Below are positions 31,991 to 32,606 of a stretch of DNA of 43,485 bases, piece by piece; the stretch's first letter is position 1, and each line of letters starts with the position of its first letter. Position numbers and translations under genes: made by a program. The stretch lies in contig PHFX01000014.1 of NCBI GenBank assembly GCA_007618135.1, forward strand, positions 1 to 43,485. Reading direction: 5' to 3'. The notes below the pieces were generated by a model, which did not search any database, was not told the origin of the DNA, and saw nothing but the letters and a program-made list of their open reading frames with translations. The stretch comes from Candidatus Brocadia sp. WS118. Lineage in GTDB: Bacteria; Planctomycetota; Brocadiia; Brocadiales; Brocadiaceae.

Positions 31991-32064
31991 GCGGGCGTAA
32001 TTCAGTGGTAGAATACCAGCTTCCCAAGCTGGGTATGAGGGTTCGATTCCCTTCGCCCGCTCCA
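31991..32064 (+). tRNA. tRNA-Gly (anticodon CCC)
   Basis: A full cloverleaf can be drawn. The acceptor stem is GCGGGCG paired with CGCCCGC. The anticodon stem CCAGC/GCTGG surrounds loop TTCCCAA, giving anticodon CCC, which reads GGG. The T-arm is GAGGG/CCCTT-like around TTCGATT, and U73 plus an encoded CCA (32062-32064) ends the gene. It begins one base after the TAA of the radical SAM gene and ends 23 bases before the HPF-CSD gene, so it must be cut out of a longer transcript or come from a promoter inside the radical SAM gene. Confidence 0.97.
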
Positions 32065-32087
32065 TTCTATAAGCAGGAGGATGTTAC

Positions 32088-32606
32088 ATGATACTGCCAT
32101 TGCAAATTACGTCGCGAAATATAGAACTCACTGAAGCGATCGAAGCTAATATCCGTGAGCATGCCGAGAAGTTAGATAAATATTACAGCAGAATTACCAG
32201 CTGCAGGGTTACGGTTGAGGCGCTTCCCAATAGATCCCTGTACAACCTGCGTATCGACATGACGGTTCCTGGTACAGAGCTCGTGGTAAAACTTGATCCA
32301 AACGCAGACCTGTATCTTGCCATACGAGATGCCTTTCATGATGCTCGCCGGAAGCTGGAGGATTTTGGCAGAAGGCAGCGCGGTGATGTGAAACAGCATA
32401 CAGAAACGCCCCGTGGTCTTATTAAAACGCTGTTTCCAGATCAGGGTTACGGCTTCCTTACCACCATGGATGGTCGTGAGGTATATTTCCACGAACATAG
32501 CGTTCAAAACCATAAATTTAAACAGCTGACCGTCGGGATGGAGGTGCGCTTTGGTGAAGAAATGGGCGAAAAAGGGCCACAGGCGACGTATGTGAGAGTG
32601 ATATAA
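32088..32606 (+). CDS. HPF/RaiA ribosome hibernation factor fused to a cold-shock domain
   Basis: A 172-residue protein. Residues 1-100 are the HPF/RaiA (sigma-54 modulation) fold: LQITSRNIELTEAIEANIRE, then HAEKLDKYYSRITSC and LYLAIRDAFHDARRKLEDF. Residues 108-172 form a cold-shock OB fold with GYGFLTT at 120-126 (RNP1) and VYFHEHSV at 132-139 (RNP2). HPF binds the 30S subunit at the tRNA/mRNA channel and silences ribosomes in stationary phase. The cold-shock domain replaces the dimerisation domain of long HPF and would add RNA binding. A strong GCAGGAGG lies before the ATG. It directly follows tRNA-Gly. Confidence 0.9.
   Translation: MILPLQITSRNIELTEAIEANIREHAEKLDKYYSRITSCRVTVEALPNRSLYNLRIDMTVPGTELVVKLDPNADLYLAIRDAFHDARRKLEDFGRRQRGDVKQHTETPRGLIKTLFPDQGYGFLTTMDGREVYFHEHSVQNHKFKQLTVGMEVRFGEEMGEKGPQATYVRVI

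Follow-up and report, generated by a model that had tools for sequence, protein, structure and literature searches.

The locus described here raises the question of what is done by a protein in which a ribosome hibernation domain is joined to a cold-shock domain (CSD). The gene lies in a window (the whole 43,485-nucleotide stretch of DNA analysed) that makes up the entire contig C202 of the 5.04 Mb, 299-contig genome of Candidatus Brocadia sp. WS118, an anammox bacterium of the Brocadiaceae (Planctomycetota). An initial annotation, made from the sequence alone, proposed an N-terminal HPF/RaiA domain followed by an OB-fold CSD that occupies the place of the dimerisation domain of long HPF. It further suggested that the protein could retain mRNA or tRNA on a ribosome that has been silenced, or could couple the cold response to hibernation. 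The features on which our analysis rests are collected in Table 1.

Table 1. Positions in the window of the putative HPFcold gene, its parts and its upstream neighbour
Feature	Position	Strand	Basis
Putative HPFcold gene, ATG start through stop codon, 172 residues	32088..32606	+	Pfam domains; full-length match to PDB 9t0z chain 9
AGGAGG Shine-Dalgarno sequence of this gene	32076..32081	+	Read in the DNA
HPF/RaiA domain (Ribosomal_S30AE, PF02482), residues 5-97	32100..32378	+	Pfam; superposition on HPF/RaiA chains at Z 16.2
Inter-domain linker, about residues 98-108	32379..32411	+	AlphaFold2 model; residues 99-105 of low confidence
Cold-shock (OB-fold) domain, PF00313, residues 109-171	32412..32600	+	Pfam, motifs, AlphaFold2, structure match
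tRNA-Gly (CCC), 23 bases upstream of the gene	31991..32064	+	Context only, outside the claimed function

The open reading frame is a real gene, because both its HPF domain and its CSD evolve under purifying selection (dN/dS in eight pairs). Whole-gene dN/dS is 0.055-0.15 in seven of the eight pairs (pairs with unsaturated dS), and values for the CSD alone are 0.068-0.185 in six of the eight. These ratios bear on the notion that the fusion is an artefact of assembly or of reading, or a pseudogene, an idea that draws on the window being one contig of a 299-contig assembly. The fusion is nevertheless found in 10 of 11 genomes of the genus (the host genome included, and one of them a single contig) as well as in the best 80 of 282 loci, which span several phyla. 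Given this recurrence and the selection on the fusion, the artefact explanation is already refuted, and we assign it a negligible probability. An antisense open reading frame that overlaps the gene (32172-32513) was also considered and rejected; it is broken in all eight relatives tested and is therefore due to chance.

Both domains score far above their Pfam cut-offs, as the initial annotation had supposed. Ribosomal_S30AE reaches 56.9 bits (E 3.5e-15, cut-off 23.7) and the CSD 49.7 bits (E 3.4e-13, cut-off 27), with the RNP1-like GYGFL and RNP2-like VYFHEHSV motifs at residues 120-124 and 132-139; the NCBIfam HPF/YfiA equivalog TIGR00741 falls narrowly below its cut-off (40.3 versus 40.9 bits). 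Pfam finds no long-HPF dimerisation domain (PF16321) in the protein, and a search of the whole genome found none either. The CSD therefore does stand where long HPF carries its dimerisation domain, and 100S dimers formed by that route are not expected. Assignment to the short HPF/RaiA proteins, which consist of the S30AE domain alone, fails on the presence of the CSD.

An AlphaFold2 model built from a 41-sequence alignment is predicted with a mean pLDDT of 88.6, and only the linker residues 99-105 fall below 50. A pTM of 0.55 is what one would expect if the HPF and cold-shock domains are not fixed in their relative orientation. The predicted model contains an HPF fold and an OB fold with a short linker between them, the latter comprising five strands past residue 108, which upholds the expectation of an OB fold beyond residue 105. 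In searches with VIA-align, model residues 3-102 superimpose on HPFs, with Z 16.2 to both 8rd8_D (RaiA; rmsd 1.3 over 99 residues) and 4hei_A (HPF), and residues 106-172 superimpose on cold-shock proteins, with Z 12.1 to 5jx4_A (rmsd 1.4 over 65 residues). The structure library held entries released to 2026-04-08, and the fact that 9T0Z is not among the matches is evidence neither for nor against a relationship.

The identity of the protein was established by comparison with a class that is already in print. HPFcold was named in 2026 (Nat Commun, June) together with a Coxiella burnetii ribosome structure; entry 9T0Z shows HPFcold (CBU_0020) on the C. burnetii 30S subunit, and 9TZE is also an HPFcold entry (PMC13392368). 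According to that paper, the HPF domain fills the A site of the 30S subunit, while the CSD is lodged in the mRNA exit channel, binding the anti-Shine-Dalgarno tail of 16S rRNA and protecting it, and bS21 and uS7 contact the protein (PMC13392368). HPF-CSD fusions are reported there from every major class of proteobacteria and from several further phyla (PMC13392368). The same source cites Chan et al. 2025 (bioRxiv 2025.11.04.686544) as also having found HPFcold. The novelty of the fusion implied by the initial annotation is therefore lost, and anammox members may already be listed in Chan et al. 2025, in the UniProt-wide tree of PMC13392368, or in both. Our search of published articles on the HPF-CSD architecture found PMC13392368 alone, and among the matches listed none was by its title a paper on anammox ribosome hibernation.

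The best PDB match of the window protein is 9t0z chain 9, which aligns from query residues 2-168 to chain residues 7-177 (E 1.6e-37) with 76 of 166 aligned residues identical. All remaining PDB matches cover one domain only, at E 2e-9 or weaker. The protein is thus homologous to CBU_0020 across both domains, and it carries PF02482 and PF00313 in one chain, each above its Pfam cut-off, which is the definition of HPFcold used in PMC13392368. A CSD model made from 62 HPFcold CSDs, with Brocadiaceae-clade rows excluded, gives the window CSD 108.2 bits, versus 26.4 bits with a model of the five free cold-shock proteins of its own genome; against the HPFcold CSD model, those five reach 36-41 bits. 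Likewise, an HPFcold HPF model gives the HPF part 132.6 bits versus 22.8 bits for the separate short HPF of the genome. These scores indicate that both halves belong to HPFcold and that the CSD is of the HPFcold type rather than a recently joined free cold-shock protein. We consider it probable from these comparisons that the window gene encodes the HPFcold of Candidatus Brocadia, orthologous to the Coxiella protein, and that its product is a monomer-type hibernation factor whose HPF domain would block the A site and whose CSD would grip the anti-Shine-Dalgarno tail.

The likeness to Coxiella HPFcold extends to the identical order of the two domains, the short linker and an alignment that runs from end to end. 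In both genomes, moreover, a short HPF is encoded separately and long HPF is absent, the Coxiella complement being that given in PMC13392368. The two proteins differ in that the Coxiella chain has a β2-β3 loop insertion, of five residues by alignment, that the Brocadia protein lacks, and in that CSD residues H135, K162 and P164 of the Brocadia protein are N, D and A in Coxiella. At some positions, such as H135 versus N, the Brocadia CSD is nearer to ordinary cold-shock proteins. With long HPF (S30AE plus Ribosom_S30AE_C, PF16321) the protein has in common the N-terminal domain and the presence of a second domain beyond a linker, but this second domain is a CSD and not a dimerisation domain. 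Short HPF/RaiA (YfiA) has the same HPF fold but not the added CSD. Free cold-shock proteins (CspA/CspB/CspE) have the OB fold and RNP1- and RNP2-like motifs, with Z of about 12, whereas the Brocadia CSD is fused to HPF. An archaeal protein described in PMC13324472 also has an HPF domain fused to an extra domain, although there the extra domain is a CBS module.

The function of HPFcold in Brocadia, including the binding site and the shielding of the rRNA tail, is inferred from the Coxiella structure. By this analogy, the HPF domain would plug the 30S tRNA cleft, blocking the A site and excluding tRNA, and the flexible linker would bring the CSD to the mRNA exit channel. There its OB fold would wrap the single-stranded 3′ tail of 16S rRNA, which carries the anti-Shine-Dalgarno sequence. 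A tail held in this way would be unable to pair with Shine-Dalgarno sequences, keeping mRNA out, and would be shielded from RNases during dormancy. The proposal implies that the CSD would prefer a short RNA with ACCUCCUUU over a scrambled RNA. Two host components that the HPFcold mechanism requires are present, since the 16S rRNA gene, read in the DNA where the RF00177 match stops, ends in the canonical anti-Shine-Dalgarno tail GGATCACCTCCTTTCT and bS21 is encoded in the genome. Binding data for any anammox ribosome were not found in the literature searched.

Aromatic and histidine residues of free cold-shock proteins take part in nucleic-acid binding. The window CSD keeps Y121, F123, Y133, H135 and F144, which are typical of nucleic-acid-binding CSDs, and could therefore bind other single-stranded RNA. 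This is what would be expected if the HPF domain silenced the ribosome and the CSD served mainly as a clamp on mRNA (or tRNA) left in the ribosome and not on the rRNA tail, much as the initial annotation had envisaged. However, the window CSD stands clearly apart from the free cold-shock proteins encoded in its genome, whose KWF motif is replaced by KTLF, without the Trp. Moreover, in the solved homologue the anti-Shine-Dalgarno tail occupies the CSD site and the protein itself fills the mRNA path (PMC13392368). We found no sign of clamping of mRNA or tRNA and regard it as improbable, and because the Coxiella CSD binds the rRNA tail, we replace that proposal with one in which the CSD most probably grips the rRNA tail of the ribosome itself.

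Residues invariant in all 81 rows of the family alignment include G122, E131, Y133, F134, H135, V153, E157, G160, G163, Q165 and A166, with the proviso that conservation counts are biased at 130-137 and 157-164, because motifs there seeded the species-level scan; G122, V153, Q165 and A166 are free of this bias. The Coxiella chain, with N at residue 135, is outside the 81 rows. The loop after residue 50 is absent in 19 Brocadiaceae-clade rows (that of the window included) and present in the other 62 as well as in the Coxiella chain. In CBU_0020 the β2-β3 loop is described as an insertion relative to the other Coxiella HPF (PMC13392368). G020 and G018, which stand further off within the family, retain a longer version, so the absence of the loop looks like a loss within the Brocadiaceae.

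The five free cold-shock proteins of the genome are encoded separately from HPFcold, whereas Coxiella is described as having lost its own (PMC13392368). The presence of these separate proteins in the Brocadia genome counts against the second suggestion of the initial annotation, that cold response is coupled to hibernation. A related reading would make the product a cold-shock-induced protein whose CSD acts as an RNA chaperone and whose HPF domain merely docks it to ribosomes. The domain name and fold are in keeping with such a role, and E. coli protein Y (RaiA) has been called a cold-shock protein (PMC3633353). We nevertheless found nothing linked to cold at this locus, and the record titles of the carriers among the best 80 of 282 loci point to a wide range of habitats. 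The solved homologue, moreover, is treated as a dormancy factor (PMC13392368). A role in cold response is accordingly very unlikely, and the orthologue of a dormancy factor remains our preferred reading.

The separate short HPF is the second HPF-domain gene of the genome, and it adjoins an open reading frame that we read as PTS IIA-like. The genome also encodes a second CSD fusion, on contig C9 (L009:436-1581, minus strand), a 382-residue protein with an N-terminal CSD and a RAMP domain that is Cmr6-like by its PDB namesake 9arw_H; it probably belongs to a type III CRISPR system.

The immediate surroundings of the HPFcold gene were also surveyed. The upstream tRNA-Gly (CCC) is present at all 10 genus loci (L010-L019) and at L020, at distances of 23 to about 550 bases; around L021-L031 the flanking DNA showed no such tRNA. 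A scan for promoters and terminators between the tRNA and the HPFcold gene found nothing. An operon or regulatory link between the two genes was set aside. Downstream, the intergenic segment 32640-32775 is a dispersed repeat with 43 matches in the genome, nine of which (its own included) cover about 120 bases or more at an identity of at least 89%.

Among 39 genomes surveyed (the host and its relatives), 20 contain a full-length HPFcold match: 10 of 11 in the genus, nine of 13 in the rest of the family and one of 15 in the rest of the order. The match in G017 is cut by a contig end, the copy in G018 has lost its CSD, and the other 17 genomes are without a match. Across the phylum, 14 of 149 genomes match at E 1e-12 or better, nine at full length (six in the family of the window) and five over the N-terminal part only. 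A species-level collection confirmed 282 loci, and the best 80 that were kept come, by record titles, from Planctomycetota, Nitrospirota, several Deltaproteobacteria-titled groups, Gammaproteobacteria, Binatia, Nitrospinota, Acidobacteria and Deferribacteres. The closest named relatives among these 80 are Candidatus Brocadia carolinensis (93% identity), B. pituitae (88%) and B. sapporoensis (83%).

The window protein falls inside Brocadia on an unrooted tree of the 81 rows, whose labels derive from submitters' record titles. Starred branches on this tree call for at least three changes involving Planctomycetota. The Brocadiaceae clade is placed among Nitrospirota and deltaproteobacterial rows, Scalindua stands beside a gammaproteobacterial row, and Isosphaeraceae/Planctomycetales lie elsewhere. 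The simple reading of this pattern is transfer of HPFcold between phyla, with paralogy also possible. The idea that HPFcold is a general substitute for long HPF was rejected, since PF16321 is also carried by 21 of 49 HPFcold genomes (those of 49 of the best 80 of the 282 confirmed loci); HPFcold and long HPF can coexist in one genome. PF16321 occurs in none of 11 Brocadiaceae-clade genomes, a count that is little informative because only one of the 149 phylum genomes has this domain.

Natural variants of this arrangement are found within the Brocadiaceae. In G012, G013 and G021 (loci L025, L021 and L022, respectively), an intact HPFcold is the only HPF-domain gene found, and the last of these genomes is a single contig. 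The HPFcold copy of G018 (20 contigs, 100% complete), at L030:1498-1836, is without a CSD and ends ...VKHHEEKE-stop; none was seen in the three forward frames over the next several hundred bases. Pfam assigns S30AE alone to this copy, which is the sole HPF-domain gene found in G018. We read it as an HPFcold that lost its CSD at the linker and would now serve as a second-hand short HPF.

Anammox bacteria grow very slowly and survive long periods of starvation. HPFcold might be the entire hibernation system of some of them, with the CSD a module that slow growers gain or shed according to the need to guard the 16S tail, although we put this forward tentatively and rate it as rather unlikely. If it is true, genomes with HPFcold only and genomes with a CSD-less copy would be natural tests of what the CSD contributes. 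The interest of this locus lies in the natural variants across anammox genomes and not in the fusion itself. HPFcold, structurally known from Coxiella alone in the literature found, is now placed in anammox bacteria, where genomes that pair HPFcold with a short HPF, genomes that have HPFcold only and one whose copy lacks the CSD offer natural comparisons for anti-Shine-Dalgarno protection in dormancy.
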